From assembly GCA_038380435.1 (NCBI GenBank), contig JAWZYU010000013.1:9995901-10059900 (forward strand): a DNA stretch of 64,000 nucleotides, given 5' to 3'. A program made the translations under genes and the position numbers. Of the stretch, positions 6,805 through 60,896 are shown in pieces. The stretch's first letter is position 1. The number at the start of each line of letters is the position of its first letter. A model generated the notes under the pieces. That model was not told where the DNA came from. It saw nothing but the letters and a program-made list of their open reading frames with translations, and searched no databases. This DNA comes from Ryuthela nishihirai. Lineage: Eukaryota; Arthropoda; Arachnida; Araneae; Heptathelidae.

Positions 6805-8259
6805 TGCAGAGAGAAAATTGTCTTTTTATGTGAGAGGTCGAGCTCAGTAAGAGGTCGAGTCAGTGAGAGGTCGAGTCAGTCTTTTTATGTGAGAGGTCAG
6901 AGCTAGTTTCAAGAATTTTCTTATTCAATCAAAATGAACATAATCGATTCGTACTTCAGGTTGTTGTCCTTGGCGTCACGGAGATGGGGGCAGAGGCTGG
7001 AGAGTATTCGTCTTTAGCAGGTTCTTTTCGCCTGTGGATTGGAATATCATCGTCTCGTGCGATGGCAAACGAAAGGATAACATGGAATGTCACACAGCAG
7101 CAGGAACGAAAGGTTGCCACGACGACGGCGGGGTGAATAATTAGTCACTTTCTGAGGTTCCAAAATTGGAATGTCAATTGTTCGGTTCGGAGATGATTTG
7201 CACTCACTTTTCTAAAGGGACATCTTCCTTTCTGCATTCACTTTAAGTCTCAATGTCTTTCTCACTGATTCAAGCTGAAACGTCGAGCCTGGTCGCACTC
7301 GCTCCGCACCCGACTGTCTTCTATCTCTTCTTTCAATTTTCAGATTTTTCCTTTTTGAATCGGAAACAGAAGTTTTCTCGAAAATTCGAGAAATCTTTTC
7401 TCCCTTCTTCCTCATTGGCCGCTCTTGGCCTTTTGTTCCGAACTTTTCGCTTTGGGTCCAATAGGGGACTTTCTAAATTTGCACCCCCGTGTAACCCTTG
7501 GATTTCGGGGAAACGGCGTCCGTGGCTAATCTTGCCTTTTCCGTGTGCTCATGATTCCTGGAACACAGTGTGTGTGTGTGTGTGTGGGGGGGGGGTGTCA
7601 CGGGGGTCGCTTGGCCACCAGGGGCGGGCGCCGTCTGTCGCTTGCGCCAGCTAATTGGAGCTGTCTTCCGCGGCGGCTCTCCCGCACACGGGTCCCGCAA
7701 CGTAATCCTACCCTTCGAAACGGCGTCGGTCTCTTCTTAAATGTCGATATGAAAGCGGATTGATGGCTTGTTCACCTTGTTACTTTAATAGGAGCGGCGT
7801 GCTTAGTGGCGTACTAGCGAGTGTGGAGCATCATATGGCCGTTCCAAGCCCCCTTTTAGGACGAAAAATTCTTCGCGCTTTTGCAGTCTCTTTTTCTTAA
7901 GAACGAGGGAGACTCACCAAGGTCACACGACGCGCCGTATAATTCGCAGCTCTTTGGTTGAGAAATGTTCATATTAAGTTATGAACAGATTGGGATCTGC
8001 TCGTAACAGAGATCTTGTATAGTGGCTGCAGTGGACCTCGTCGGCCTAGGAGAGGAACAGGCCAACAGGATCCTATGGCCTCTGAGGTGGAAGGAACTTG
8101 GATTGGAAAGGCAGGGGAGTAGAGCAGTATGAGCCCAGGCACCCCTGAGTCCTCACTGTAGCACGACACGGCTAGTTGTAGGCAAGAGAGGAGAGGTTGG
8201 AAGGGGTGGGGGGAGATGAACATGTGAAACGATAAATTGAAGAAAAGAAAGAGAGAATG
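6805..8259. other. Unique DNA with short direct repeats and a GT/G run
   Basis: Directly upstream of LINE copy A lies a cluster of short direct repeats (6820-6900). From 7200 to 7760 the sequence is less AT-rich and contains a (TG)n run ending in ten Gs (7568-7595). Open frames here have no recognisable motifs and overlap in several frames. No gene is called. Confidence 0.5.
6820..6900. repeat. Short direct repeats at the 5' junction of LINE copy A
   Basis: The string GTCTTTTTATGTGAGAGGTC occurs twice, about 60 bases apart, with GAGAGGTCGAG(T)CAG-like units between. It lies just outside the truncated 5' end of the LINE. It may be filler or local duplication formed at integration, or pre-existing target sequence. 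Confidence 0.7.
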
Positions 8260-17680: not shown

Positions 17681-20600
17681 TGAAAGGTCTATAAATGGTA
17701 GCTAGGTAGTCACTGGAAGGAGAGCTATGCACCAATCTCCTGTGACGATGCATAGAACCGGCCAGGCCTAGCAGCTAATGTCCGACCCCGCCTTCTCGTG
17801 GTGCAGACCGTTAGTTACTTTCGAAAGAGATACTCTCTTGTGGAAGTGAACGGAAGGGGAGGGCTGCCAGATTAATGTGGCCTACTGATCTGGACAACTA
17901 TGGCTACTTTTCTTTTTTTCTACCCTGCTGAGGAGTGGTCAACCACACAGGGTCCTGGTGCTGACCATATAAACCCTCTGGATTAGACAGATATATGGCT
18001 CGGAGCTTGATAATGGATCCTGATTTTGCTGCATCGGTGGGCTTCTTTGGAGGGAAAATCTTCCGCTGTGTTTTCAGTTTGCTTGTAGATTAACAGCTCC
18101 AAGTGAATAGATTCACAGGATATGTTTATCAGCTGGTGGATAATCCTGAGCAGAAGTCATCGCAGGCATCTGAACTATTTGCTTCTATTGGCATCGTCAA
18201 ATTCTACATTGGAGGAAGTCTTCCAGTGTAGATGGCTTCAGCCTTTAGTGGTGGGGGAAAACGGGTCTTTGCCCCATGTCTGCGATTAGAGGGCTGTTTG
18301 ATATTGTTGGCATTCCCTCTATCTATAAACAAGTTTCTTTAAACATCCCACTAACCATTTTCGTTCCATAGGTAGTTGGAATATGAGGACTCTGCACAGA
18401 GCTTATTCTCTTGATGTCCTCACACAAGAATTCCACCATTATAATTTAGATATTCTTGGTTTGCAAGAGACCAGATAGAAAGATAAAGGTCAGATTCTTA
18501 AAAATAATCTTAAATTTCTCTTTTCAGGGAGGGACGACAATAAGCATCACCAAGGCGTGGGTCTGCTTCTCAGCAGACACGCTAGTGATGCTCTTCTAGG
18601 ATACGAGTGCATTAATGAAAGGTTTCTTACAGCAAAATTTCAGACAAGCGTTAAAGACTTGAATGTTATCTGCTGTTATGCCCCCACTGAGGATGCCGAT
18701 GAGGATGAGAAGGATAGGTTTTATGAACAACTTTAGGATATTTTGAATTCTGTCAAGAAAAGAGATATTACCCTTGTTCTACGTGACTTCAATGCCAAAG
18801 TTGGTACTGACTCTGACCTTTGGGGAGGAGTAATAGGCCCTTTTGGTATTGGTAGCTGCAATGGGCAACGTCTCCTACAGGTAAGTAAACTCAATGGATT
18901 CAGAATAACTAAAATTTATTAGAAACACCACGACATACAGAAGTATACATGGGTTTCACCTGATGGGCTGCATAAAAATGTGATTGATTATATATTAATT
19001 AACAGCAAATGGGCTAGTTCTGTTAGGAATACCAGGTCATATAGGGGAGCTGAAATTGGATCTGACCATTACCTTGTTAAAAGTCTCTTGCAACTTAAAC
19101 TTAAAAAGTGTTATGCTAGGGTTAAAAAATTTACTTTTAATACTGAAGCTTTGAAAGACCCAGTTATAACCAAAGCTTACCATGATAGGTTACTTAATCA
19201 TTATGACAGTCATAGTATGCTTACTACTGAAGTTGAGGAAGAATGGGATCATTTTAAACAGGCATTTTTGGATACTAACAGTACTCTTTTAGGAAAAAAA
19301 GGAGCAGAGGAGGCAGAATTATCTGAGTGATAAGGCACTTGAGTTTATTTCGGAAAGAAAGAACTGCAGGAATGTCCTTAATCAATACTCTACTAGTCCT
19401 AATAGAAAGCATTACAGAGAACTTAATAAACGTGTAAAAGATCAGTTAGCTGCTGATAAGAATCTTTGGCTTGATGGCTTGGCTGACAAAGCCGAGGAAG
19501 CAGTTAGACAGCACAACAGCAGAGAGCTGTACCAGATAGTTAATGTTTTGTGTGGTAGAAAACGAACAGGTATACAGGGATTGAAGGATAAACAAGGTAA
19601 GGTTATAGAAGGTGAGGATTCTGTCATGGCTAGGTGGGCTGAGCATTTCAGTGATGTTCTAAACAATGTGGTTAGTTCTACTCCCATTGTTTGTAATTAT
19701 GATAGATGCATTGGTGGATTTAATGTTGGCTCTATAACAGAATCTGAAGATATTTTGGCTATTTCTAAACTTAAACTTCATAAATCCCCAGGAGTAGATG
19801 AAATTACTACGGAAATGCTTAGAGCTGGGAATATTTCAGTTACCACTTGGATGACTGAAATTCTGAATATCGTTTATGATAAAGGCATGGTTCCTAAAGA
19901 TTTTACCAGAGCTATTATTATCCCTATTTTCAAAAAAGGTGATCGCAGTTCTTGTGATCACTATAGGGATATCAGCCTACTCTCTGTTCCAGGTAAAGTT
20001 CTTTCCATGATTGTGCTTAATAGAATTAAGAATCTGGTTGAGTCAATTGCGTGATGAACAATGTGGATTCAGAAGTGGTAGGGGATGTGTGGATCAGATA
20101 TTTTCACTCAGGCAGATTCTTGAGCAACGTTTAGAGTTTCAGAAACCTTTGGTTGCTAGCTTTGTTGATTTCAAAAAGGCTGTCGACTCTGTTGATCGTC
20201 ATAATTTGTGGTTGATTGTGAGATCTTATGGTATGCCAGACAAGTTAGTTAACATAATGAAAGCTCTCTATAATAATACTGCGTCATGTGTGAGAGTTGG
20301 TAAGGCTTGTAGCAATTGGTTTAGCATTACTTCTGGTGTTTGACAAGGGTGCATTTTGTTTCCTTTTCTCTTTAGCTTGGTTATTGATTATGTTATGAGA
20401 AATTCACTTCAAGGGAAAGATTTTGGCCTTAAATGGACTGGAGATACGATAATTTCTGATTTATATTATGCTGATGATTTAGTCCTTTTGGCAAATGATA
20501 TTGATGAGATGAACTCTTTCATTCGACCTGTTGATGAAACTGGTATTAGAGTAGGTTTGGTTATAAACAGGGAGAAAACTAAAGTGATGAAAATTGGTCA

Positions 20601-21268
20601 GGCAGGCTGTGATTCAGTTAATCTGAATGGTTGCAGTCTTGAGCAGGTGTTACAGTTTAATTACCTTGGGAGCTATGTAACAGATAATGGTGATGTACGG
20701 CATGAGATTAACAGACGAATAGGAATTGCTGCCAAGACTTTTAAGAATCTATGGAGAGTGTGGTGAAATAGGCGTATACACCTAAAGACTAAAATTAGAC
20801 TTTATAATAGTTTGGTTCTTTCTAGGGTTAGTTATGGTAGTGAAACTTGGACGCTGTGTAAACAAGATAACAGGAAACTAGATGCTTTTGATTCCAGATG
20901 CTTACGCAGTATCTTGGGCATTAGGTGGTTGAACTTTGTAACTAATGATGAGGTTAGGCAAAGGAGTCTGCAACCTCCTTTAAGCAGCATATTGTGCAGA
21001 GAGAGACTCCGTTGGTTTGGTCATGTTGCCCGTATGAATAATTATAGATTGGCGAATAGGGTTATGAACAGTGTGCCTAAAGGCCTCAGAAAGAAGGGGA
21101 GACCTAGGATGCGGTGGGCAGACAATGTCAAACAGGACCTTGTTAGAATTGGTGTGCAGTGGCCAGATGCAGTAGATGTAGCTCAGGACAGACCTGCTTG
21201 GAGAACTAAATTGCACGGTCTGGTTGGACCTCCGTAGCCCATGGCTGCTTGAGGATGATGATGATGAT
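17681..21268 (+). mobile_element. RTE-like LINE, copy B, full-length but mutated
   Basis: Same family as copy A, with about 700 bp of 5' sequence before the endonuclease start that other copies lack, making this the most complete copy (~3.6 kb). The 3' end reads CCCATGGCTGCTTGAGG followed by GAT repeats (21253-21268). It sits inside an LTR: the sequences flanking it, ACGTCGTC and ACTCGTCC, resemble each other and the uninterrupted LTR at 46.3 kb, so a short target duplication is possible. The 5' region (17681-18380) has stops in all frames inspected and shows no ORF1 protein that I recognise. Confidence 0.88.
18383..21236 (+). pseudogene. RTE-like LINE polyprotein pseudogene
   Basis: The frame begins MRTLHRAYSLDVLTQEF and carries the endonuclease marks (DFNAKVGTDSDLWGG, GSDHYLVKSLLQ). 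Several stop codons and frameshifts break it, for example a TAG after LQETR at about 18477 and a frameshift near the lysine run at 19300. A deletion near 20040 shortens the segment before the block LRDEQCGFRSGRG. A stop replaces the Arg of the motif GVRQGC at about 20341. The box YYADDLVLLAND and the tail RLRWFGHVARM and GRPRMRWADNVKQDL remain, ending GLVGPP. The protein cannot be made in one piece. Confidence 0.9.
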
Positions 21269-29805: not shown

Positions 29806-29899
29806 TTATGAATCCGCGCAGCATATGCAATAAAATACAATGCACCATTTTATCTATGCTCACAACTTCGATATATTGTGTGTCTCAGAAACATGGCTC
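29806..29899 (+). pseudogene. Start of the CR1-like endonuclease
   Basis: The frame FMNPRSICNK to ILCVSETWL matches the opening of LINE endonucleases (a NARSLRNK-like start and the ETWL block that contains the catalytic Glu). It is cut after ETWL by the RNase H LINE insertion and continues after 35076. Confidence 0.75.
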
Positions 29900-29904
29900 G
29901 ATAT

Positions 29905-30790
29905 GACAGTGAAACCGCTAAGTGGGACCTCCATCCCACCAGAAGACTGAGCGTGTCATGGTCTATGGAGTTACCATCAGGTCGAGGAATTGAAATATAC
30001 ACTGATGGTTCCAAGAGCGAGGATGGTGTGGGCTTAGCCTACACTGTCTGCAATCAAGGAGCCAAAGTGTACGATTGCAAGAGGAAGGTATCAAATAATG
30101 GCTCAGCCTTCCAAGCAAAGCTGCTTGCCATCAGAGAGGCCCTAATTTGGGCACTCAATGATGGCAGTCAGAATAACGACATCCGGCTGTACACCGACAG
30201 CTGGGCAGCTCTGCAAGCGCTTGAAGATGCAAACAGCAGGCATCAGATAGTAAACGAGGTCAAGCGCCTCCTGGGCAATCAGAACATGCCCAGAGTTTCC
30301 TTCTACTGGATCAAGGCATACGTAGGTCATGAGGGGAACGAGCGGGCAGATCAACTGGCCCACTCAGCAGGTACTAACATCCAACCTGAGAGAGCGGTAA
30401 AGACTTCTAAAAATACCCTGAAGTCGATCTTAAGTCAAACAGTTATGGACGAGTGGCAGAAGCTCTGGGATACGACTGAGAATGATCTTCAAGCAAAGAC
30501 ATTCTTGCAAAGGGTCGGTCTATCACTGATGTCCTGAGACCACTATCTAACGCAGGTACTGACAGGACAAGGGAGTTTCTCAGCATATCTGGAGCGTTTT
30601 AAGATCGCTACCGACAGTTACTGCGGCTGTGGGGTTCCAGATGCAGATGTCGGGCACTATATCCTCCGGTGTCCAATTCAGAAGGGTTCGTTAACGAACT
30701 CAGGAGCTCCCAGGCTATCAGTGAGGCAGCAGGCGGGGCAGTCACGGTGTCCATCAGGAGTGCCCGAGTTAGGACGCACCTGAGGGACAT
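29905..30790 (+). pseudogene. RNase H domain and Cys-His tail of an I/LOA-like LINE
   Basis: RNase H removes RNA from the RNA-DNA hybrid during retrotransposition. The domain shows IEIYTDGSKSEDGVGLAY (first Asp), SAFQAKLLAIREAL, RLYTDSWAALQAL (Asp) and YVGHEGNERADQLAH (His and Asp). The second acidic site is Lys here (QAKLL), while copy 2 at about 34110 keeps Glu (QAELL), so copy 1 likely lost catalysis. A TGA at 30536 ends the frame. Past it, the reading continues DHYLTQVLTGQGSF and CGCGVPDADVGHYILRCP, a C-C-H-C motif typical of this LINE group's C-terminus. Confidence 0.85.
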
Positions 30791-31121: not shown

Positions 31122-34100
31122 ACAGCAGGCTATTTTGCACTAAAGAGGCCAAGCCACAAGCTGAAATTGTTGTTTCTAACCCTAAAGTGAATGCCATCCT
31201 GGCATATTACTCCACCACAGTGGTAGCAGTGGAGATCGGCTATGGGAGTTTAAATTTACACGCCATCTCCATCTACTGTCCACCGAGTCGGAACATCGAG
31301 GACTCATTGACTGAGCTACAAAACGTCCTAGCTCAGATCAAATATAAGAACTTAGTGGTGGGTGGTGACTTCAATGCAAAGCACCCCCTCTGGGGATCGA
31401 ATAGACAAGATATCAGAGGAGACGATTCCAATGATCCAAGACTGACGCTTTAGCGACAAGGTCACTAACAGCGACCATAAGTATTTAATGTTCCTTATGG
31501 GAGGCTGAACACCGCCCCCTCACACCACAAAAAGGTTTGCAATTGGCAAGACCCCTGACTGGTGCAAGCTCACGCGCTGTGTTGCACTGTACCTGGTTGA
31601 GATCCGCCAGTGCATAACCCGTATTTAATTGTAACTCTCTGAACAACATCGTCAGAGATATTACCGAGTGTTTATGTTCTGGTTGCGAGAAAACCTTCGG
31701 GTTTAAGGTTAAACTCCCAAAAGGTAGGGGCGGGGGTGGCTCAGTCGGTAGCGCGCCAGGCTCGTAATCTGTAGTTCCCAGGTTCGAGTCCGAGCTGGGT
31801 CAGCGTTGAGATTTATCTCCGCAAAATTCTCCGCCCTGCCCACAGTCAGAAGGAGACACCGGTGGGCTTGGAAAGGCCGCCGTCCGTCGGATGGGACGTT
31901 AAGCCGTGGCCCGTGTGCGGGAGAGCCATACCCTGTGCACGTTAAAGAACACGCTGGATGGCCTTGACGGGAGGCTACCATCTGTCTCCCAACAGCTGTT
32001 CCAGTGGGTCCCCTCCCCCAACCTTCTCTGAGCCTTCGGGGTCCATGTGACCTGGCCATTTATCCCATGGTGTGCAAAAAAGTGTCGCTCAGAGGTAAAA
32101 CAACCCAACCCAAAAGGTAGAAAGTCTGTACCCTGGTGGATACCAGAACTCGGTATCAAAAGAAAGAGGGTCTGAGCTCTAAGAAAAAGGTATCAAAGGT
32201 GCCACAATGGGGAAAGAAGTTCTAAAGAGGAGTTATATAGGAAAGAGCAGGCGGAGTAGAAGCTCGCTATTCGCCAAGCTCAGTTGGCCTCATGGCAAAA
32301 GTTTTGCAGTGAAGTTACTGCACAGAACCCCTTTACTCTGCAGTACATGCTGGCTACTGGGAAGGACATGAAACCCCTGGATATTGAGTATGTTCGCAAA
32401 AAAAGATGGGTCCAAGACCACTTCGTTTGATGAAACTATCCAGGTATTACTAGAGGGTTTATTCCCAGAGGATGATAGGAGCTCTGATGATGCCCAACAT
32501 CAACTCCTTAGGGACCATAGCAGGGTCCCACCAGACACGGAAGATGACGTTCCGTTTACAAAAGAGGAGGTCGGAGAGCTGATAAAGCCAATGGCCCGGG
32601 GTAAAGCCCCTGGCCACGATGGTCTGACAGTGAAAATTGTGATGCAGGTGTTCAATGAACACAAAGATCTATTCACCCAGCTGTATAACATCTGTCTGAT
32701 GTTATAATCTGTCTGATGTTATACAACTCCAGTCTGAGACTGGGAGTTTTTCAACAAGCCTGGAAACAGGCCGACTTGGTCTTTTTTAACAAGGCAGGTA
32801 GAGATCTGGCAGATGTAAGTTCTTACAGACCAATATGTCTGCTGCCGGTGATGGGTAAGATTCTGGAAAACTGCTCACAAATACCACTGCATTACCACTG
32901 TTGTAAGAACAACTTCCTGAACGATAGGCAATTCGGCAATTCAATGTCCACCACTGTCGCTATCAAACAGGTGGTAGACATTGTTAAGGTAAACAAAGAA
33001 AATAAATTGCACGCCTCTCTCATCGCCTTGGATGTGATGGGCGCATTTAACAATGTCTGGTGGGCTGCTATCTTAAGCAGGTTAAAAGATTGTTCTTGTC
33101 CCAGGAACATCTTTGTTCTGGTGTCCAATTGTCACCTACTCCCATGCCAGTAGGGCAGTCTCAAGGAACTTGGACAGGGGCTGCCCACAAGGTTCGTGCA
33201 GTGGCCCGTTCCTCTGGAACTAAGTTGCAGACACGGCCCTAGAGGGGCCTACCTGAGGGTGTCTGGCTCCAGGCGTATGCAGCTTGTCATATTGGCATCC
33301 ACCAGAGAGAGACTGGAGATCGCCGGCAATGCAGCACTATTGGTACTTCAAGGATGAAGTCTACGCTACAAGCTTGAGTTCAGCTGTGCGAAGACTACAT
33401 CAGTTACCGTGGCTAAGGAGGGTGTCCACAACAAGAGGTACCCGATTTTTAAACTGAATGGCAATAATATCAGCCATAAGACAACTTTAAAATACTTGGG
33501 AATCATTCTGGATGAGAGGATGAGCTGGATCCCGCACTTGCAGGACCTAAAGAAAAATGTACCAAAGTTATGTGCAAGCTGGGCGAATCGCTCGCATCTC
33601 GTGGGAACTATGAGAAGTCCTCAAAGAAATTTATTTAAGGGGCACAGAGAGGATCCTAACTTATGGAGCGGGTGCCTGGTGGCACCTGAAGGACCACTCC
33701 ATCATAGGTAGAAAGCTGCTTGCAGCTCAACGACCAGCTTTACTGCGATCACCAGAGCTTATAGGACCACATCTATGGATGCTCACCTGGTGTTAGCAGA
33801 GAACCCTCCTCTGTTTTTGACGGTCGGAAAATAAGTGACCATTTTTAGAGTCCTGCAGTCTAGGGAAAAAGCAACATTCCTTGGAGTCCAGTATGACCTC
33901 AGTGAGACCGCTATGTAGACACCCATAACACCAAAAGACTGAGTGTGTCATGGTCTATGGAGTTACTATCAGGTCAGAGAGTTAAAATATACACGGACGG
34001 TTCCAAGAGCGAGGATGGTGTGGGCTTAGCCTACACTGTCTACATTCAAGGAGCCAAAGTGTAGGACTATAAGAGGAAGGTATCAAATAATAGCTCAGCC

Positions 34101-34800
34101 TTCCAAGCAGAGCTGCTTGCCATCAGAGAGGCCCTAATTTGAGCTCTCAATGACGGCAGTCAGAATAATGACATCTGGTTGTACACAGCCGGGCAGCTCT
34201 GCAAGTGCTTGAAGATGCAAACAACAGGCATCAGACAGTAAATGAGGTCAAGCGCCTCGTGGGCAATCAGAACATGCCCAGAGTCTCCTTCTCCTGGATC
34301 AAGCACATGTAGGCCATGAAGGGAATGAGCGGGCAAACCAACTAGCCCACTCAGCAGGTACTGACACCCAACCTGAGATAGCGGTAAATACTTCTAAAAA
34401 TACCCTGAAGTCTATTCTAAGCCAACAAATTATGGACGAGTGGCAGAAGCTCTGGGATACGACTGAGAATTTTCTTTAAGCAAAGACATTCTTGCAAAGG
34501 GTCAGTCTATCACTGATGTCCTCAGGCCACTATCTCACGCAGGTATTGACGGGACATGGGAGTTTCCCAGCATATCTGGAGCGTTTTAAGATCGCTACCC
34601 ACAGTTACTGCGGCTGTGGGGTTCCAGATGCAGACTTCGGACACTACATCCTCTGGTGCCCGATCACGGAAGGGTTCGCTAGTATAACGAACTTAGAAGC
34701 TCCCACGCGATCAGCGAGGTAGCAGGCAGCGCGGTGACAGTGTCCATCAGGAGTGCCTGAGTTAGGGTGCACCTGAGGGACATAGCTGGCTCATCTGCCG
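31122..34800 (+). pseudogene. I/LOA-like LINE ORF2 pseudogene
   Basis: Endonuclease: CPPSRNIEDSL, LVVGGDFNAKHPLWGS and, after a frame break, NSDHKYLMF. Linker resumes after the SINE with VPWWIPELGIK. Reverse transcriptase: MARGKAPGHDGLTVKIV, QQAWKQADLVFFNKAGRD, SYRPICLLPVMGKILE, ALDVMGAFNNVWW and, in another frame, RGCPQGSCSGPFLWN. The YADD box is deleted; sequence jumps to LVILASTRERLEIAGNAAL. Then FKLNGNNISHKTTLKYLGII. RNase H: GRAVKIYTDGSKSEDG-like, QAELLAIREA; the second Asp block (YTDSWA) is deleted and frameshifts follow. Cys-His: CGCGVPDADFGHYILWCP. Clearly dead, but it shows the full domain order of the family. Confidence 0.85.
31728..32108 (+). mobile_element. SINE family 1, young full-length copy
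   Basis: Forward orientation from GGGCGGGGGTGGCTCAGTCG to AAACAACCCAAC. Flanked by the perfect 12-bp duplication CCCAAAAGGTAG (31716-31727 and 32109-32120). It interrupts the linker between endonuclease and reverse transcriptase of the I/LOA-like LINE, and removing it restores the reading order around KVESLYPGGYQ. It is therefore younger than that LINE. Confidence 0.95.
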
Positions 34801-35010
34801 GCTCCGGGACTCACTTCTTTGAGACTGAAGCCGCTTTTGCTCTTTCACTCAACTTCCATTTCCTACCAGGGCTGTGCTCCGCACTCCCTTTAATGCCATC
34901 CAAACTTCAAGTCCCTACTGGTCTACTCTGAGACAAACTTTCATCTTCTACTTCCAGGCTTCTCACGCCAGCTCATGTAGAGTCGAAAGATGGAATACGA
35001 GCTTTTCCCT

Positions 35011-35075: not shown

Positions 35076-36034
35076 TGTATGTGTCCTAAAGGTAGAGGAT
35101 AGATTGAATGCTAAAGGTGGTAGAGTGTGCTTATTCATGAAAAATCATATCCCAAAATGTCACTGTAATATCAATGCCTACTCGTTTCAGCGAGTATGAA
35201 ATTATTGGCATTTATTCATTTCACAGTGGCATATGTTGAATGCTCACAGCCGACATCCCTCCTTCTAATTCTAGCAGCCATTCTTATATGGAATATGTTA
35301 TTAGTGGCAGTATTCCAGTTCTCACTGGAGACTTTAATTTTGCCTATACAGAATGAACAACTCCATACTCTACAAATAATGCTCAAGGGCTTGCTATCTC
35401 ACGAATAAATTTCCTAGGATTCAACAACTTGTTACCTTTCCCAACCAAGGCGAAAATTATCTTGACTTGGTCTTCTGCAACCGCGATATGTTCATACTGA
35501 ACATTGAAGCATTCTGCCTCTTTCTTTCCACCAGTGATACACCTCTCCATATTCCTACTGCTTTTAACCTCAACCTCTGCACTTCTACAAATGCAGATTA
35601 CGATATTTTATCTGAATAAGTCAGCAACATGTTCACTCATCGTGGTTCTGCTCTTCCACAATTATTTGACCAACTGGCAGCCGAGTTCTCCGATACTATG
35701 TATTCATGTCTGCAACTAATTCCACGTATTTCTGTGAAAAGTAAGATCTCCAATCCCTACCTACGAAAATTAGCCAAGTTTAAATTGCTTCGAAACGATA
35801 ATAATGCTACTAATAAAGCAAATTATAACGCAGCATCCAAGATATATTCAGATGCTTCACAAAAAAGTGTTCTTCTAAGCACCTTCTTCAGCTTTGCAAC
35901 GGTAAAAATTCAAATGCGTTTTACAAAGATGCAAGAGGTAAACAAAAAGGTCCACGAGTTATCCTTCCTTTGAAACACTACAATGGTTCAACTGTCACTT
36001 CAAATCATGAAAAGGCTTCACAATTTGCGACCGA
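35076..36034 (+). pseudogene. CR1-like LINE: remaining endonuclease and linker, frameshifted
   Basis: Reading frames in order give DRLNAKGGRVCLFMKNHIP, IPVLTGDFNFAYTE (endonuclease DFN block), NYLDLVFCNRDMF and LSTSDTPP (corresponding to the SDH block, with the His not kept). The linker FDQLAAEFSDTMYSCLQLIP and KISNPYLRKLAKFKLLRND follows, typical of the region between endonuclease and reverse transcriptase in CR1/Jockey-type LINEs. Several frame changes and stops show it is dead. It leads directly into the tandem array. Confidence 0.75.
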
Positions 36035-39000
36035 CTCTTTTCGAGGCATTCCCTACTTCTGTTTTGCGTATTCTTGAATAAGCATCTCCTGTTCTGTTTT
36101 GTGTATTCTTGAATAAGCATCTCTGATCTCCTGAATATTGCATCCTCCTCAAATGATCTCTGACATCAGTCTCAGATAGTTTACTAAGAGACTACCTGGA
36201 CTGTCCAACTCAAGCTATGAGGAGCTACTGAAAGTGCTCATTATCCCGGTCGTGAGGTCTCATCCACACTTTTCGAGGCATTCCCTAATTCTGTTTTGCC
36301 TATTCAAGAAAAGGCATCTCCTGTCTGGTCTCCTCAAATGATCTCTGACATCAGTCTCAGATGGTTTACTAAGAGACTACCTGGACTGTCCAACCCGAGC
36401 TATGAGGAGTTACTGAAAGTGCTCATTATTCCGGTCGTGAGGTCTCATCCACTCTTTTCGAGGCATTCCCTACTTCTGTTTTGCCTATTCTTGAATAGGC
36501 ATCTCCTGTCTGGTCTCCTCAAATGATCTCTCATATCAGTCTCAGACGGTTTACTAAGAGACTACCTGGACTGTCCAACTCAAGCTATGAGGAACTACTG
36601 AAAGTGCTCATTATTCCGGTCGTGAGGTCTCATCCACTCTTTTCGAGGCATTCCCTAATTCTGTTTTGCCTATTCTTGAATAGGCATCTCCTATCTGGTC
36701 TCCTCAAATGATCTCTGACATCAGTCTCAGATAGTGTACTAAGAGACTACCTGGACTGTCCAACTCAAGCTATGAGGAGCTACTGAAAATGCTCATTATT
36801 CCGGTCGTGAGGTCTCATCCACTCTTTTCGAGGCATTCCCTACTTCTGTTTTGCCTATTCTTGAATAGGCATCTCCTGTCTGGTCTCCTCAAATGATCTC
36901 TCATATCAGTCTCAGACGGTTTACTAAGAGACTACCTGGACTGTCCAACTCAAGCTATGAGGAACTACTGAAAGTGCTCATTATTCCGGTCGTGAGGTCT
37001 CATCCACTCTTTTCGAGGCATTCCCTAATTCTGTTTTGCCTATTCTTGAATAGGCATCTCCTATCTGGTCTCCTCAAATGATCTCTGACATCAGTCTCAG
37101 ATAGTGTACTAAGAGACTACCTGGACTGTCCAACTCAAGCTATGAGGAGCTACTGAAAGTGCTCATTATTCCGGTCGTAAGGTCTCATCCACTCTTTTCG
37201 AGGCATTCCCTAATTCTGTTTTGCCTATTCTTGAATAGGCATCCCCTTTCTGGTCCCTCAAATGATCTCTGACATCAGTCTCAGATAGTTTACTAAGAGA
37301 CTACCTGGACTGTCCAACTCAAGCTATGAGCAGCTACTGAAAGTGCTCATTATTCCGGTCGTAAGGTCTCATCCACTCTTTTCGAGGCATTCCCTAATTC
37401 TGTTTTGCCTATTCTTGAATAGGCATCTCCTGTCTGGAGATGCCTATTCAAGAATAGGCAAAACAGAATTAGGATATACAGAGATAGTTTACTAAGAGAC
37501 TACCTGGACTGTCCAACTCAAGCTATGAGCAGCTACTGAAAGTGCTCATTATTCCGGTCGTAAGGTCTCATCCACTCTTTTCGAGGCATTCCCTAATTCA
37601 GTTTTGCCTATTCTTGAATAGGCATCTCCTGTCTGGTCTCCTCAAATGATCTCTGACCTCAGTCTCAGATAGTTTACTAAGAGACTACCTGGACTGTCCA
37701 ACTCAAGCTATGAGGAGCTACTGAAAGTGCTCATTATTCCGGTCGTGAGGTCTCATCCACTCTTTTCGAGGCATTCCCTAATTCTGTTTTGCCTATTCTT
37801 GAATAGGCATCTCCTGTCTGGTCTCCTCAAATGATCTCTGACATCAGTCTCAGATAGTTTACTAAGAGACTACCTGGACTGTCCAACTCAAGCTATGAGG
37901 AGCTACTGAAAGTGCTCATTATTCCGGTCGTGATGTCTCATCCACTCTTTTCGAGGCATTCCCTAATTCTGTTTTGCCTATTCTTGAATAGGCATCTCCT
38001 GTCTGGTCTCCTCAAATGATCTCTGACATCAGTCTCAGATGGTTTACTAAGAGACTACCTGGACTGTCCAACTCAAGCTATGAGGAGCTACTGAAAGTGC
38101 TCATTATTCCGGTCGTGAGGTCTCATCCACTCTTTTCGAGGCATTCCCTAATTCTGTTTTGCCTATTCTTGAATAGGCATCTCCTGTCTGGTCTCCTCAA
38201 ATGATCTCTGACATCAGTCTCAGATAGTTTACTAAGAGACTACCTGGACTGTCCAACTCAAGCTATGAGGAGCTACTGAAAGTGCTCATTATTCCGGTCG
38301 TGATGTCTCATCCACTCTTTTCGAGGCATTCCCTAATTCTGTTTTGCCTATTCTTGAATAGGCATCTCCTGTCTGGTCTCCTCAAATGATCTCTGACATC
38401 AGTCTCAGATGGTTTACTAAGAGACTACCTGGACTGTCCAACTCAAGCTATGAGGAGCTACTGAAAGTGCTCATTATTCCGGTCGTGAGGTCTCATCCAC
38501 TCTTTTCGAGGCATTCCCTAATTCTGTTTTGCCTATTCTTGAATAGGCATCTCCTGTCTGGTCTCCTCAAATGATCTCTGACATCAGTCTCAGATAGTTT
38601 ACTAAGAGACTACCTGGACTGTCCAACTCAAGCTATGAGGAGCTACTGAAAGTGCTCATTATTCCGGTCGTGATGTCTCATCCACTCTTTTCGAGGCATT
38701 CCCTAATTCTGTTTTGCCTATTCTTGAATAGGCATCTCCTGTCTGGTCTCCTCAAATGATCTCTGACATCAGTGTCAGATGGTTTACTAAGAGACTACCT
38801 GGACTGTCCAACTCAAGCTATGAGGAGCTACTGAAAGTGCTCATTATTCCGGTCGTGAGGTCTCATCCACTCTTTTCGAGGCATTCCCTAATTCTGTTTT
38901 GCCTATTCAAGAAAAGGCATCTCCTGTCTGGTCTCCTCAAATGATCTCTGACATCAGTCTCAGATGGTTTACTAAGAGACTACCTGGACTGTCCAACTCA

Positions 39001-42000
39001 AGCTATGAGGAGCTACTGAAAGTGCTCATTATTCCGGTCGTGAGGTCTCATCCACTCTTTTCGAGGCATTCCCTAATTCTGTTTTGCCTATTCTTGAATA
39101 GGCATCTCCTGTCTGGTCTCCTCAAATGATCTCTGACATCAGTCTCAGATAGTTTACTAAGAGACTACCTGGACTGTCCAACTCAAGCTATTAGGAGCTA
39201 CTGAAAGTGCTCATTATTCCGGTCGTGAGGTCTCATCCACTCTTTTCGAGGCATTCCCTAATTCTGTTTTGCCTATTCAAAAAAAGGCATCTCCTTTCTG
39301 GTCTCCTCAAATGATCTCTGACATCAGTCTCAGATAGGTTACTAAGAGACTACCTGGACTGTCCAACCCGAGCTATGAGGAGTTACTGAAAGTGCTCATT
39401 ATTCCGGTCGTGAGGTCTCATCCACTCTTTTCGAGGCATTCCCTAATTCTCTTTTGCCTATTCTTGAATAGGCATCTCCTGTCTGGTCTCCTCAAATGAT
39501 CTCTGACATCAGTCTCAGATGGTTTACTAAGAGACTACCTGGACTGTCCAACTCAAGCTATGAGGAGCTACTGAAAGTGCTCATTATTCCGGTCGTGAGG
39601 TCTCATCCACTCTTTTCGAGGCATTCCCTAATTCTGTTTTGCCTATTCAAGAAAAGGCATCTCCTGTCTGGTCTCCTCAAATGATCTCTGACATCAGTCT
39701 CAGATGGTTTACTAAGAGACTACCTGGACTGTCCAACTCAAGCTATGAGGAGCTACTGAAAGTGCTCATTATTCCGGTCGTGATGTCTCATCCACTCTTT
39801 TCGAGGCATTCCCTAATTCTGTTTTGCCTATTCTTGAATAGGCATCTCCTATCTGGTCTCCTCAAATGATCTCTGACATCAGTCTCAGATAGTTTACTAA
39901 GAGACTACCTGGACTGTCCAACTCAAGCTATTAGGAGCTACTGAAAGTGCTCATTATTCCGGTCGTGAGGTCTCATCCACTCTTTTCGAGGCATTCCCTA
40001 ATTCTATTTTGCCTATTCAAGAAAAGGCATCTCCTGTCTGGTCTCCTCAAATGATCTCTGACATCAGTCTCAGATAGTTTACTAAGAGACTACCTGGACT
40101 GTCCAAATCAAGCTATTAGGAGCTACTGAAAGTGCTCATTATTCCGGTCGTGAGGTCTCATCCACTCTTTTCGAGGCATTCCCTAATTCTGTTTTGCCTA
40201 TTCAAAAAAAGGCATCTCCTGTCTGGTCTCCTCAAATGATCTCTGACATCAGTCTCAGATAGGTTACTAAGAGACTACCTGGACTGTCCAACCCGAGCTA
40301 TGAGGAGTTACTGAAAGTGCTCATTATTCCGGTCGTGAGGTCTCATCCACTCTTTTCGAGGCATTCCCTAATTCTGTTTTGCCTATTCTTGAATAGGCAT
40401 CTCCTGTCTGGTCTCCTCAAATGATCTCTGACATCAGTCTCAGATAGTTTACTAAGAGACTACCTGGACTGTCCAACTCAAGCTATGAGGAGCTACTGAA
40501 AGTGCTCATTATTCCGGTCGTGAGGTCTCATCCACTCTTTTCGAGGCATTCCCTAATTCTGTTTTGCCTATTCAAGAAAAGGCATCTCCTGTCTGGTCTC
40601 CTCAAATGATCTCTGACATCAGTCTCAGATAGGTTACTAAGAGACTACCTGGACTGTCCAACTCAAGCTATTAGGAGCTACTGAAAGTGCTCATTATTCC
40701 GGTCGTGAGGTCTCATCCACTCTTTTCGAGGCATTCCCTAATTCTGTTTTGCCTATTCAAAAAAAGGCATCTCCTGTCTGGTCTCCTCAAATGATCTCTG
40801 ACATCAGTCTCAGATAGGTTACTAAGAGACTACCTGGACTGTCCAACCCGAGCTATGAGGAGTTACTGAAAGTGCTCATTATTCCGGTCGTGAGGTCTCA
40901 TCCACTCTTTTCGAGGCATTCCCTAATTCTGTTTTGCCTATTCTTGAATAGGCATCTCCTGTCTGGTCTCCTCAAATGATCTCTGATATCAGTCTCAGAT
41001 AGTTTACTAAGAGACTACCTGGACTGTCCAACTCAAGCTATGAGGAGCTACTGAAAGTGCTCATTATTCCGGTCGTGAGGTCTCATCCACTCTTTTCGAG
41101 GCATTCCCTAATTCTGTTTTGCCTATTCAAGAAAAGGCATCTCCTGTCTGGTCTCCTCAAATGATCTCTGACATCAGTCTCAGATAGGTTACTAAGAGAC
41201 TACCTGGACTGTCCAACTCAAGCTATTAGGAGCTACTGAAAGTGCTCATTATTCCGGTCGTGAGGTCTCATCCACTCTTTTCGAGGCATTCCCTAATTCT
41301 GTTTTGCCTATTCAAAAAAAGGCATCTCCTGTCTGGTCTCCTCAAATGATCTCTGACATCAGTCTCAGATAGGTTACTAAGAGACTACCTGGACTGTCCA
41401 ACCCGAGCTATGAGGAGTTACTGAAAGTGCTCATTATTCCGGTCGTGAGGTCTCATCCACTCTTTTCGAGGCATTCCCTAATTCTGTTTTGCCTATTCTT
41501 GAATAGGCATCTCCTGTCTGGTCTCCTCAAATGATCTCTGATATCAGTCTCAGATAGTTTACTAAGAGACTACCTGGACTGTCCAACTCAAGCTATGAGG
41601 AGCTACTGAAAGTGCTCATTATTCCGGTCGTGATGTCTCATCCACTCTTTTCGAGGCATTCCCTAATTCTGTTTTGCCTATTCTTGAATAGGCATCTCCT
41701 ATCTGGTCTCCTCAAATGATCTCTGACATCAGTCTCAGATAGTTTACTAAGAGACTACCTGGACTGTCCAACTCAAGCTATTAGGAGCTACTGAAAGTGC
41801 TCATTATTCCGGTCGTGAGGTCTCATCCACTCTTTTCGAGGCATTCCCTAATTCTATTTTGCCTATTCAAGAAAAGGCATCTCCTGTCTGGTCTCCTCAA
41901 ATGATCTCTGATATCAGTCTCAGATAGTTTACTAAGAGACTACCTGGACTGTCCAAATCAAGCTATTAGGAGCTACTGAAAGTGCTCATTATTCCGGTCG

Positions 42001-43283
42001 TGAGGTCTCATCCACTCTTTTCGAGGCATTCCCTAATTCTGTTTTGCCTATTCAAAAAAAGGCATCTCCTGTCTGGTCTCCTCAAATGATCTCTGACATC
42101 AGTCTCAGATAGGTTACTAAGAGACTACCTGGACTGTCCAACCCGAGCTATGAGGAGTTACTGAAAGTGCTCATTATTCCGGTCGTGAGGTCTCATCCAC
42201 TCTTTTCGAGGCATTCCCTAATTCTGTTTTGCCTATTCTTGAATAGGCATCTCCTGTCTGGTCTCCTCAAATGATCTCTGACATCAGTCTCAGATAGTTT
42301 ACTAAGAGACTACCTGGACTGTCCAACTCAAGCTATGAGGAGCTACTGAAAGTGCTCATTATTCCGGTCGTGAGGTCTCATCCACTCTTTTCGAGGCATT
42401 CCCTAATTCTGTTTTGCCTATTCTTGAATAGGCATCTCCTGTCTGGTCTCCTCAAATGATCTCTGACATCAGTCTCAGATAGTTTACTAAGAGACTACCT
42501 GGACTGTCCAACTCAAGCTATTAGGAGCTACTGAAAGTGCTCATTATTCCGGTCGTGAGGTCTCATCCACTCTTTTCGAGGCATTCCCTAATTCTGTTTT
42601 GCCTATTCAAAAAAAGGCATCTCCTGTCTGGTCTCCTCAAATGATCTCTGACATCAGTCTCAGATAGGTTACTAAGAGACTACCTGGACTGTCCAACCCG
42701 AGCTATGAGGAGTTACTGAAAGTGCTCATTATTCCGGTCGTGAGGTCTCATCCACTCTTTTCGAGGCATTCCCTAATTCTGTTTTGCCTATTCTTGAATA
42801 GGCATCTCCTGTCTGGTCTCCTCAAATGATCTCTGACATCAGTCTCAGATAGTTTACTAAGAGACTACCTGGACTGTCCAACTCAAGCTATTAGGAGCTA
42901 CTGAAAGTGCTCATTATTCCGGTCGTGAGGTCTCATCCACTCTTTTCGAGGCATTCCCTAATTCTGTTTTGCCTATTCAAAAAAAGGCATCTCCTGTCTG
43001 GTCTCCTCAAATGATCTCTGACATCAGTCTCAGATAGGTTACTAAGAGACTACCTGGACTGTCCAACCCGAGCTATGAGGAGTTACTGAAAGTGCTCATT
43101 ATTCCGGTCGTGAGGTCTCATCCACTCTTTTCGAGGCATTCCCTAATTCTGTTTTGCCTATTCTTGAATAGGCATCTCCTGTCTGGTCTCCTCAAATGAT
43201 CTCTGACATCAGTCTCAGATGGTTTACTAAGAGACTACCTGGACTGTCCAACTCAAACTATGAGGAGTTACTGAAAGTGCTCA
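36035..43283 (+). repeat. 185-bp satellite array derived from LINE reverse-transcriptase C-terminal sequence (~38 units)
   Basis: The anchor ATGATCTCTGACATCAG recurs every 185 bp: 36153, 36338, 36523, 36708, 36893, 37078, 37262, then 37646, 37831, 38016 and every 185 bp to 43196 (28 exact steps). Each unit encodes, in one frame, ILE-ASPVWSPQMISDISL and RWFTKRLPGLSNSSYEELLK, the conserved region after the reverse-transcriptase core of CR1/L2-like LINEs, where a TAG (or AAG) stands for the usual Tyr. Because 185 is not a multiple of three, units are not joined into one protein and the repeated 62- and 76-codon frames are by-products. Each unit has the palindrome GCCTATTCTTGAATAGGC or a variant. 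The last unit runs into the unrepeated LINE tail, showing where the array was born. Confidence 0.96.
37393..37473. repeat. Perfect 38-bp inverted duplication inside the satellite
   Basis: The arm CCTAATTCTGTTTTGCCTAT... (37393-37430) is followed by five bases TGTCT and its exact reverse complement (37436-37473). The anchor of this unit is lost, and the next anchor is 384 bases on instead of 370. This is the footprint expected from strand switching during replication at the natural palindrome of the unit. Confidence 0.95.
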
Positions 43284-43667
43284 ATATTCACTCCTTGGAA
43301 TGGAGAAGGTTGGTTCACGATTTAAAAATCTCTTATAAAATCATTAACAACATTCTCTATTCAAATCCGGTCGAGCCATTAATCCATGTCTTGTACTCTA
43401 GCAGAACAAGGATGCATCCTCAGTGTATATACACTGTATACTTGGCACAGCAAGTTGTTCCTCATGCGAGAACAAACTATCATTCCTTCGTATGCCGAGT
43501 TGGTCGTGTTTGGAACTTTCTGCCTTCTGACATGTTGTCCCCAACTTTGCGTTCCTCAACCACAACAAGTGTTAACCATATTGTAAATATTTCTGTTTCT
43601 GATGTCTTGAGCGGTATTAGCGTCTATTTTTGTACCTACTTCTGAATAAATAAATTAAAAAAAAATG
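43284..43667 (+). pseudogene. C-terminus and 3' end of the CR1-like LINE
   Basis: Continuous with the last satellite unit, the frame reads NIHSLEWRRLVHDLKISYKI, YSSRTRMHPQ, HSFVCRVGRVWNFLPSDML and stops at 43645. The pattern SLExRRLxxDLxxxYKI and SFxxRxxRxWNxLP is the normal end of CR1/L2-like ORF2 proteins. It is followed by AATAAATAAATTAAAAAAAAA, a short A-rich 3' end. Confidence 0.85.
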
Positions 43668-44690: not shown

Positions 44691-45031
44691 GTTTTCAATC
44701 CGTTTTGAATTTTTTTATTCAATAATAATAAAAAGTAAATTCCTCTTTAAGCCTCTCGCTCACCACTGATACCTGACAGGAGTTTCTCAGTCAATACGCC
44801 AGAGAGAAGATCTCCAAGGAAAGCGATATTTTAACATAAACAAAACATGAATCAGGAAAAAAAAATCATTAGAGAAAGAGAACCGAAATGCCATCTCCAT
44901 TGCCCTCGCTCTCATTTTGCTACATAAAAAACTGTATCACCCAGGTCATTAGTAATCATTGTAACTTTTTAATTCTTGATGCATTTTGAGTTTTTTCGCA
45001 CGCGCACTCACACACACATACATACAAACAA
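44691..45031. other. AT-rich spacer, nothing recognised
   Basis: About 340 bases between the Tc1 relic and LINE copy D, including a CACACACATACATACAAAC run just outside the LINE 3' end. No feature was seen. Confidence 0.45.
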
Positions 45032-47701
45032 ACAAAATCCTCATGCAGCCATGGGCTATGGTGGTGCAACCAGACTGTGTAATTTTCCTCTCCAGATAAT
45101 GTCTTTTCTGAGCTACTGTTACTGCATTTGGCCATTCTAGGCCAATTCTAGCAAGGTCCTGTTTGACATTGTCTGCCCACCGCATTCTAGGTCTCCCCTT
45201 CTTTCTGAGGCCTTTAAGAACACTGTTCATAATCCTGTTTGCTACTCTGCAGCTATGCATACGGGCAACATGGCAAAACCAATGCAGTCTCTCTCTGCAC
45301 AATGTGCTGCGAAAAAGAGGTTGATGACTCCTTCTTCTAACCTCATCATTACTTACATAGTAAAACCATCTAATGCCCAAGATACTGTGTAAGCAACTAG
45401 AATCACAGGCATCAAGTTTCTTGTTATCCTGCTTACAAAGGATCCATGTTTCACTGCCATAACTAACCTTAGAAAGAAACAAACTATTTTGCAGCCTAAA
45501 CTTAGCCTTTAGGTGTAATTTTTCCACACTCTCCGTAGATTCTTAAAAGTCTCAGTGGCAATTCCTAATCTTCTATTTAGCTCATACTGCACATCACCAG
45601 TATCTGTTACATAGCTCCTGTCATGTCCCTCTAATTTATTTTTTAGTATTTATTGTTGCATTTTATTGTGTTTTTGTTATTGTATATATTTTTATGTATT
45701 AAGTGTGTTTTTGGAAGTGCTATTGTGGGATGTGACTCATAGATGCTGTTTTTGGGTCCAAGCTGGCTGCCTGCATGGGTTGACGAGTCCAAAAAGTCTT
45801 TTACGGCCTTTTTACAACTAGCCTAGGGCACGAGTGTGAACGCAGGGGAGAGGAGCTGGGTAAGAAGGAAACAACAGTCTTGAGCGTCGCAAACTGGAAG
45901 GACGTTTGAACATGTGTCAAGAAACTCCACTCTTACTCAAAGCCCTTTAGGAGAGGGTTCGATTCTCCTTAAGGGCTCTTAAGGAGAGGTTCGATTCTAA
46001 TTAAAGGAGATGGTTCGATTCTAATTAAGTGAGATTGGTGAATCAAATATAGTTCTGTGGAACTGAAATGGATTCTATGTGAACCACGTTGTAGGCAAAG
46101 GTTAAATATCCTTTCACCGAGTCTGAGGTCGGTAAAACAAGAAACTGCAGAGTGTGGTTCTCCACCTCATTGCGTAATTGTTTGCAGCAGTCGTCCCTAT
46201 ACAGCTCTCGTGTGTGAATTGATGGACATATTTCTGTACATCACTTGGTGCAACAAGTCTGAGGCATACGTTGGTATGAGTATAATAACCCACACACCTG
46301 TTATTTCACCTAAATAAGGGTGAAGGTAATCGAAGAACTAATTCATCATCCTCCGGTGGCCATGACATTTGGAGCATTCCGTCAGATATGGTGTAGGCCA
46401 TCACAGCTCCCAAGATAATTACACTGAGACCCTTGCTCAAGAGTGCAGGCATTCAAAACAACTGAAGCACTATCTGCCTGACCAATTTTCATCACTTTAG
46501 TTTTCTCTCTGTTTATCACTAAACCTACTCTATTACCATTCTCATGAACAGCCTTAATGATAGAATTTATGACATCAACATCATTAGCCAACAGGGCAAA
46601 ATCATCTATATAACCTAAATCAGAAATTTTGAAATCTCTAGACTATTTAAGACCAAAATCTTTCCTTTGCAAAGAATTTCGCATTACATAATCAATAACC
46701 AAACAAAAGCAGAAAAGAAGATAAAATGCACCCTTGTCTAACTCCACTATCAATGCTAAACCAATCGCTAAAAGATGTACCAACTCTCACACACGACTCA
46801 GTGTTATTGTAGAGAGCTTTCATTATACTAACTAACTTATCAGGTATTCCATATGATCTACCAGTCAACCACAAATTATGTCGATCAACAGAGTCAAAAG
46901 CCTTTTTGAAATCTATAAAGCTAGCAACCACTGGTTTCTAAAACTTTAAGCATTTCTCAAGAATCTAAGTGAAATTATTTGATCAATACATCCCCTACCA
47001 CCTCTGAATCCACATTGTTCATCACGCAGTTGTCCATCAACCAAATTCTTAATTCTATTAAGTATAATCATGCAAAGAACTTTACCTGGAACAGAAAGTA
47101 AACTAATCCCCTATAATTATCACTAGAACTGCGATCACCTTTTTTAAAAATTGGGACAATGATAGCTGTAGTAAAATCCTTAGGAACAACACCTTTATCA
47201 TAAAAAATATTCAAAATTTCAGTCAGCCATGTGACAACACAAATGTTTCCATTCTAAGCATTTCAGTGGTGATTTCATACACCCCTGGGGATTTATGCAG
47301 TTTTAATTTAGCGATAACCAACGTGACTTCGGAATGTGATGTAGGGCCATCATTAAAGCCAATAATGCATCTATCCTCATTACAAACAATGGGAGTAGAG
47401 ATAATCACATTATTTAGAACTTCTCTGAATGCTCAGCCCATCTAGTCATCACAGAATCCTCACTTTCAACCACCTTGCCATGTTTATCCGTCAATAATCC
47501 CTGTATACCTGTTCGTTTTCTACCCCACAAAACATTAACTATCTGGTACAGCTCTCTGCTGTTGTGCTGTCTAATTATTTCCTCGGCTTTGTCAGCCAAG
47601 CTATCATGCCAAAGATTCCTATCAACTGTTAACTGATCCTTTACATGTTTATTAAGCTCCTTGTAATGCCTTCTGTTAGGACTAGTAGGGTGTTGATTCA
47701 T
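45032..47701 (-). mobile_element. RTE-like LINE, copy D, split by a solo LTR
   Basis: Minus strand, 5' truncated at the linker (NQHPTSPNRRHYKELNKHVK at 47701) and running through LKLHKSPGVYEITTEML, FIDFKKAFDSVDRHNLW, DSGVRQGCILSS and the C-terminal RPRMRWADNVKQDLARIGL to the CCATGGGCTATGGTGG end. A 787-bp LTR at 45619-46405 sits between the segments VINREKTKVMKIGQA and EKLHLKAKFRLQNSL. The YADD box is changed: the DNA at about 46605 reads as YIDDFAL-like. Frameshifts are present. It is clearly diverged from copies A and F, with an earlier insertion date likely. Confidence 0.88.
45619..46405 (+). mobile_element. Solo LTR with 5-bp target duplication
   Basis: Begins TGTCATGTCC and ends GGCCATCACA, the TG...CA ends of LTRs, and is flanked on both sides by GCTCC (45614-45618 and 46406-46410). 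The uninterrupted LINE copy A has GCTCC once (in CATAGTTCCCAAGG-type context) at the matching place. Internally it resembles the LTR at 16874-17680/21269-21306. A solo LTR forms when recombination between two LTRs removes the internal genes. A 5-bp duplication fits Ty3/gypsy or BEL-type integrases; which one is not decided. Orientation is taken from the LTR next to the primer-site-like sequence at 21307. Confidence 0.88.
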
Positions 47702-59476: not shown

Positions 59477-60896
59477 CTCTTTTAATCATCATCATCATCA
59501 TCATCATCCTCAAGCAGCCATGGACTACGGAGGTCCAACCAGACCGCGCAGTTTAATTCTCCAAGCATATCTGTCCTGAGCTACATCTGCTGCATCCGGC
59601 CACTGTACACCAATTCTAACAAGGTCCTGTTTGACATTGTCTGCCCACCGCATCCTAGGTCTCCCCCTCCTTCTGAGGCCTCTAGGCACACTGTTCAAAA
59701 CCCTATTCGCCAATCTATAATTATCCATACGGGCAACATGGCCAAACCAGCGGAGTCTCTCTCTGCACAATATGCTGCTTAAAGGAGGTTGCAGACTCCT
59801 TTGCCTAACCTCATCATTAGTTACAAAGTTAAACCACCTAATACCCAAGATACTGCGTAAACATCTAGAATCAAAAGCATCTAGTTTCTTGTTATCTTGC
59901 TTACACAGCGTCCAAGTTTCACTACCATAACTAACCCTAGAAAGAACCAAACTATTATACAGTCTAATTTTAGTCTTTAGGTGTATACGCCTATTTCTCC
60001 ACAATCTCCATAGATTCTTAAAAGTCCCGGCAGCAATACCTATTCGTCTGTTAATCTCATGCCGCACATCACCAGTATCAGTTACGCAGCTCCCAAGGTA
60101 ATTAAACTGTGACACCTGCTCAAGACTGCAACCATTCAGATTAACTGAATCACAACCTGCCTGACCAATTTTCATCCCTTTAGTTTTCTCTCTGTTTATA
60201 ACCAAACCTACTGTACTACCAGTCTCATCAACAGTTCGAATGAAAGAGTTCATCTCATCAACATCATTTGCCAAAAGGGCTAAATCGTCAGCATAATCTA
60301 AATCAGAAATTTTCGTATCTCCAGCCCATTTAAGGCCAAAAGCTTTCCCTTGAAGTGAATTTCGCATAACATAATCAACAACCAAACTAAAGAGAAAAGG
60401 AGACAAAATGCACCCTTGTCGAACACCAGAAGTAATGCTAAACCAATTGCTACAAGACTTACCAACCCTCACACATGACTCAGTGTTATTATAGAGAGCT
60501 TTCATTATGTTAACTAACTTGTCTGGTATACCATATGATCTCACAATCAACCACAAATTATGACGATCAACAGAGTCGAAAGCCTTTTTGAAATCAACAA
60601 AGCTAGCAACCAAAGGTTTCTGAAACTCGAAACATTTCTCAAGAATCTGCCTAAGTGAAAATATCTGATCTACACATCCCCTACCTCTTCTGAATCCACA
60701 TTGCTCATCACGCAATTGCCGGTCAACCAGATTCTTAATTCTCACAATCATGGAAAGAACTTTACCTGGAACGGAGAGTAGGCTGATACCCCTATAGTTA
60801 TCACAAGAACTGCGATCACCTTTTTCGAAAATAGGGATAATAATAGCTCTGGTAAAATCTTTAGGAACCATGCCAAACTCAATATTCCTCTTTTAA
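59477..60896 (-). mobile_element. RTE-like LINE, copy F, 5'-truncated, youngest-looking
   Basis: The 3' end is an ATC run (59487-59508) after CCATGGACTACGGAGG. The 5' end is cut at about 60873. The 9-bp sequence CTCTTTTAA lies just outside both ends (59477-59485 and 60888-60896), with about 14 extra bases at the 5' junction, and is a likely target duplication. The coding part has no stop for 448 codons and is very similar to copy A. Confidence 0.9.
59525..60871 (-). CDS. RTE-like reverse transcriptase, open but lacking the endonuclease
   Basis: The frame holds the complete reverse-transcriptase core. In order: MVPKDFTRAIIIPIFEKGDR (residues 1-20), LRDEQCGFRRGRGCVDQIFS (~55-75), VASFVDFKKAFDSVDRHNLW (first catalytic Asp, ~90-110), ITSGVRQGCILSPFLFSLVV (~150-170), DYADDLALLAND (catalytic Asp pair, ~195-205) and the C-terminal RLRWFGHVARM and GRPRMRWADNVKQDL, ending GLVGPP. 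The N-terminal endonuclease, about 450 residues in copy A including the linker, is absent through 5' truncation. There is no promoter evidence. It is better viewed as a preserved fragment than as an expressed gene. Confidence 0.8.
   Translation of the reverse strand: MVPKDFTRAIIIPIFEKGDRSSCDNYRGISLLSVPGKVLSMIVRIKNLVDRQLRDEQCGFRRGRGCVDQIFSLRQILEKCFEFQKPLVASFVDFKKAFDSVDRHNLWLIVRSYGIPDKLVNIMKALYNNTESCVRVGKSCSNWFSITSGVRQGCILSPFLFSLVVDYVMRNSLQGKAFGLKWAGDTKISDLDYADDLALLANDVDEMNSFIRTVDETGSTVGLVINREKTKGMKIGQAGCDSVNLNGCSLEQVSQFNYLGSCVTDTGDVRHEINRRIGIAAGTFKNLWRLWRNRRIHLKTKIRLYNSLVLSRVSYGSETWTLCKQDNKKLDAFDSRCLRSILGIRWFNFVTNDEVRQRSLQPPLSSILCRERLRWFGHVARMDNYRLANRVLNSVPRGLRRRGRPRMRWADNVKQDLVRIGVQWPDAADVAQDRYAWRIKLRGLVGPP

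Follow-up and report, generated by a model that had tools for sequence, protein, structure and literature searches.

The window analysed here is the 64,000-nucleotide stretch C13:9995901-10059900, which belongs to a 79.9-Mb contig (C13) of a genome searched as 3.11 Gb in 1680 contigs. Its main feature is a tandem array of 7.1 kb, hereafter W, which is bounded on both sides by LINE sequence. TRF reported a period of 185 bp with 38.6 copies and 95% matches, in agreement with the ~38 units of 185 bp counted in an earlier sequence-only reading of this DNA, and a fuzzy anchor located 39 copies, with a spacing of 185 in 36 of 38 intervals and of 184 and 199 in the remaining two. The features of the locus are as follows (window coordinates).

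35096..36021, plus strand: frameshifted left-hand LINE remains (blastn to LINE loci L015, 77 and 85%, and L024, 73-83%)
36024..36051, plus strand: left joint, from LINE linker to unit at ACTCTTTTC (compared with L015 and L024)
36057..36123, plus strand: left edge of the array, consisting of a scrambled partial unit with a 35-bp duplication (TRF, sequence)
36145..43289, plus strand: array W, 38.6 copies of the 185-bp unit (TRF, anchor spacing)
37393..37473, no strand: 38-bp perfect inverted repeat with a 5-bp spacer, within W
43102..43121, plus strand: foreign stretch TTCCGGTCGTGAGGTCTCAT, 17-20 bp, carried by the units, example from the last unit
43269..43284, plus strand: switch zone of the last copy, from a unit-type base (site 148) to a LINE-type base (site 163)
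43285..43665, plus strand: LINE C-terminus and A-rich 3' end

In alignments with two LINE-type proteins, the last copy of W together with the C-terminus (43172-43645; ASPVWSPQMISDISLRWFTKRLPGLS...) matches the region that directly follows the Pfam RT domain, from position 764 in P0001 (RVT_1 at 469-709) and from position 447 in P0002 (RVT_1 at 145-394), and the unit was therefore placed in ORF2 just after RT. No Pfam family was detected in the C-terminal ORF. RT itself is present in an array-free copy, L015, in which a stop-free piece (L015:3861-4496) of a 1,089-bp segment gave RVT_1 at E 2.6e-08 and matched human LINE-1 ORF2p chains by sequence. Alignment with LINE copies showed that the LINE homology of the unit begins at CCACTCTTTTC and ends near CTCA(A/T)TATTC. 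The foreign stretch lies between these LINE parts and measures 17-20 bp, including 3 bp in common with the LINE end. With up to four substitutions allowed, none of 33 other LINE loci contained it, 20 of these loci being stretches of 431-463 bp only. The unit also lacks 15 bp present in most LINE copies and differs from the LINE majority sequence at 11 of 168 sites. The sequence-only reading had derived the repeat from an ORF2 segment of the LINE; its source just after RT stands, and the 17-20 bp of foreign sequence have to be subtracted from it. That reading had also described the units as encoding an ASPVWSP segment. The place of this segment after RT was likewise confirmed, but successive 185-bp units differ in reading frame, 185 not being divisible by 3, and in 25 of the 39 window units a stop codon immediately precedes ASPVWSP, so the array is not a repeated protein. 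A coding role of the array was rejected.

Outside tandem context, the monomer is homologous to a dispersed element: of 455 candidates, 40 were scored, and these included lone LINE copies of 78-83% on many contigs. Each of the 13 long LINE loci contains the segment outside any array, once in every case but L012, which has two copies. The possibility that all copies of this LINE carry the repeats, named beforehand as an observation that would speak against local amplification, was dismissed on these lone copies and on the confinement of unit-unit joints, at up to three mismatches in 32 bases, to two arrays (see below). The two LINE copies of L012 (L012:3460 and L012:9078) lie 5.6 kb apart on one strand with equal scores to the unit plus C-terminus, which suggests a local duplication.

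The borders of W agree with the earlier description of LINE sequence to the left and a C-terminus and A-rich end to the right; the left remains are read as endonuclease and linker, a judgement made from their translation. At the left joint ~1.1 kb bearing the RT core is missing, as had been proposed, and the 1,089-bp RT segment of L015 gave no BLAST match at E<=1 within the window. An RT-deleted LINE subfamily was considered and rejected, as a genome search allowing three mismatches recovered no left joint but this one. The joint lies where the unit (CCACTCTTTTC) and the L024 linker (CCACTTTTC) are similar, and the left partial unit has, by eye from the alignments, ~3 differences from the unit in 60 sites. 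Within W, the inverted repeat at 37393-37473 looks like a fold-back template-switch scar. It adjoins the two irregular spacings of 184 and 199 bp. In the second array, described next, no inverted repeat of at least 25 bp with arms up to 60 bp apart was found.

A genome search with the unit for arrays outside LINE context had been suggested. By using a 601-bp probe we identified a second array, B, on the same contig (C13:7727351-7733088, minus strand), with 31 anchors over 5.7 kb, inverted relative to W and 2.3 Mb from it; this array was indeed elsewhere, but it lies in a 5'-truncated copy of the LINE. With up to three mismatches allowed, a 32-base probe for the unit-unit joint matched the 3.11-Gb genome 68 times, with 38 of these matches in W and the other 30 in B, as compared with 0 for the control; more divergent joints (more than 3 of 32) would be missed. 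At this sensitivity there are two arrays only. They lie at 7.7 and 10.0 Mb of the contig and amount to ~12.9 kb. In both, a non-coding monomer with homology to a dispersed element is repeated head to tail, as expected of a TE-derived satellite, whereas the high genomic abundance of mature satellites was not seen, these ~12.9 kb being set against a genome of 3.11 Gb. The arrays, 7.1 and 5.7 kb long, share one contig and gave no sign of spread on a centromere scale, and the suggested step from nucleosome-length unit to centromeric satellite thus received no support. A segmental duplication between W and B was rejected, the outer flanks having only dispersed repeats in common.

At up to two mismatches the foreign stretch had 69 matches, 38 in W and 31 in B, and the 31st match of B is its left edge. 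At this edge the foreign stretch runs on into the flank, which is single-copy over the 446 bp searched, and B is the only place where the foreign stretch of the unit is continuous with unique DNA. Because of this continuity, B is probably the birthplace. The founding joint can be read by comparing CTCATTATTC-CGG in the unit with TCATTTC-CGG in the flank, with TTC in common. The left edge of B coincides with the unit's own joint, which is required if B is the birthplace and would otherwise have a chance of ~5 in 185 (within 2 bp), by our estimate. A further marker lies at the right end of W. At site 163 the unit and the terminal copy of B (B31) have T, whereas the terminal copy of W (W39) has A, as do 30 of 31 LINE rows (for this count and for the derived sites below, L014, L017 and the second L012 copy were left out).

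The sequence-only reading had the array born in place, through local amplification in the LINE of the window, and B would then be a daughter. W is indeed the longer array (39 against 31 anchors) and retains LINE sequence on both sides. On the other hand, nothing in the window LINE could have supplied the foreign stretch, which is absent from all 33 other LINE loci and runs into unique DNA at B; the coincidence of the B edge with the unit joint would have to be due to chance, and the terminal copy of W lacks the founder base at site 163. We therefore regard birth in the window as improbable, and the earlier statement as probably wrong.

The account that we consider reasonably probable is that B is the birthplace and W a daughter array within another copy of the LINE, transferred and enlarged in the following way. 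The initial tandem duplication would have taken place in the 5'-truncated LINE copy at C13:7.73 Mb, where LINE sequence (CTCATTATTC) would have been joined to the DNA just beyond the truncated 5' end (CGG...) through ~3 shared bp (TTC). Each 185-bp unit would thereby have kept ~165 bp of LINE and, as a birth mark, 17-20 bp of the flank. Expansion of the array at B would have followed, and a piece of several units would later have been copied, perhaps by break-repair copying, 2.3 Mb away into the window copy of the same LINE. On the right side of W the joining may have used LINE homology, and on the left side the piece might have been joined to the linker by short similarity (CCACTTTTC against CCACTCTTTTC) with loss of the RT core. 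Afterwards W would have been enlarged by local multi-unit duplication, and unequal exchange or replication slippage could account for the growth; the order of these events is likewise the one that seems to fit best.

Several observations count against this account. The right-hand switch in W39 depends on one diagnostic base. The left joint of W lies at almost the same LINE base as the start of the unit's LINE part, a coincidence that the account does not explain. No empty site for B was found, its left flank being single-copy over the stretch searched, and there is no target-site duplication of at least 7 bp, the longest common word in the compared stretches being 6 bp. The derived sites shared by the two C-termini and their grouping at bootstrap 81, which are presented below, and the differences in the left partial unit of W also belong here; the latter would allow room for an older arrival.

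We then compared the sequences of the two arrays. The mean unit difference was 3.3% within W, 2.6% within B and 3.5% between them, and the consensus sequences differ at two sites. The LINE base C at site 43 occurs in 16 of 31 units of B versus 2 of 36 of W, and the LINE base G at site 118 in 29 of 31 versus 10 of 36 (W01, W07 and W08 left out), so that B stands nearer to the LINE at both sites. The terminal units are alike: between W39 and B31 there are 5 differences in 168 unit sites, compared with 29 in 219 sites of the adjoining C-termini (p 0.0004). Since the units are closer than the C-termini next to them, it seems that the C-termini had already diverged when unit sequence passed from one locus to the other. 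It should be noted that the C-termini of W and B have five derived sites in common, three of them found in 0 of 31 LINE rows, and that at least five common derived sites occur in 4 of 465 LINE pairs. The two C-termini also form a clade at bootstrap 81 in an unconstrained tree (L012 also left out). For the C-terminus of the LINE the genome gave 887 first-look candidates, of which 40 were scored. Because of these shared sites and this grouping, W and B are not simply unrelated copies; they may represent a single small sublineage of the LINE, or some of the C-terminus may have travelled with the units.

The same five sites and the same clade would also be expected if array and C-terminus had moved jointly long ago and later exchange between the arrays had kept the units alike while the flanks diverged. 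Such exchange would have to act across 2.3 Mb in inverted orientation, the base of the window at site 163 would have to be a reversal, and the terminal units, which are usually the least homogenised, are alike; an ancient joint move is accordingly as doubtful as birth in the window. A little less probable still is a chimeric retrotransposon, in which the window element arose by template switching of RT from LINE RNA to array RNA and back to LINE and was inserted as a single piece. LINE sequence on both sides and the short-similarity left joint could be accommodated by this route, but the lower divergence of the terminal copies than of the adjoining C-terminus argues against it. Tandem arrays are prone to assembly errors, yet an error in one of the arrays is very improbable, as each has distinct flanks and its own unit variants.

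With regard to growth, W shows local duplication of several units at a time: 12 of its places lie in exactly repeated two-unit strings as compared with 2.6 expected (0 of 2000 shuffles reached 12), four places lie in three-unit strings (reached by 4 of 2000 shuffles), and none in four-unit strings. In B, two places lie in repeated strings, which is nothing beyond chance (reached by 619 of 2000 shuffles). The T-to-G change of the unit at site 50 completes a hairpin with 8-bp arms, GCCTATTC-TT-GAATAGGC, with a folding energy of -6.4 kcal/mol (z -4.7) versus -1.9 (z -1.1) for the LINE form. The AAG variant folds less well (-3.6), and loop variants were found in both arrays. It is possible that trouble in replicating this hairpin drives breaks and thereby growth. 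In a rare unit of B (B05; array B is locus L010) the hairpin loop has one base fewer, CTATTCAAGATAG, which comes near a simple inversion of the TT loop.

Satellites derived from LINEs, including CR1, have already been described (PMC9659126, PMC6947457). Like the unit reported here, the HinfI satellite of chicken is a LINE-made tandem repeat that includes ORF2, being composed of CR1 3' UTR and partial ORF2 (PMC9659126, PMC6947457). In contrast with HinfI, the present unit carries a flank that is not LINE and forms only two small arrays, and its parent can be named only as a LINE. PROsat (Phodopus) and Pvc 20 (Phoca) are listed as LINE-1 ORF2-derived and so have an ORF2 source likewise, but from a different LINE, and their entries describe no origin locus (PMC9659126). 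The SINE-derived satellites of squamate reptiles, as presented in PMC10702118, also arose when part of a dispersed retroelement became tandem arrays, and some of their units contain extra unrelated sequence; they differ from our case in having a SINE parent, many loci (some up to 1000 units) and a subtelomeric link. For the origin of satellites from TEs, the reviews in question propose microhomology joining and non-allelic recombination (PMC9659126, PMC12628747). What is unusual here is that the probable birthplace, the founding joint and the daughter array are all visible. More tentatively, we suggest that this is a newborn satellite tagged by a unique flank, so that a single genome reveals its birthplace, its founding joint and the direction in which it spread, and that its first move was guided by homology into another dispersed copy of its parent LINE.

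The locus offers a small, checkable case with a founding joint of microhomology, an origin tag and one daughter array in a copy of the parent element. It also indicates that reading an array from a single locus as born in place can mislead where a second array exists. If the case is general, dispersed LINE copies would serve as landing pads by which a new satellite spreads without transposition.

The window contains other LINE sequences. One LINE at 3955-6825 on the minus strand has long open frames, namely a frame of 699 aa with RVT_1 (E 1.8e-31) and, beside it, a frame of 256 aa that appears endonuclease-like by eye. Pieces akin to this LINE are located at 19293-21237, 44949-45542 and 59525-60892. 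Finally, 29812-30537 and ~34001-34840 are mutually similar and, on inspection by eye, resemble the RNase H-type ends of a further LINE.
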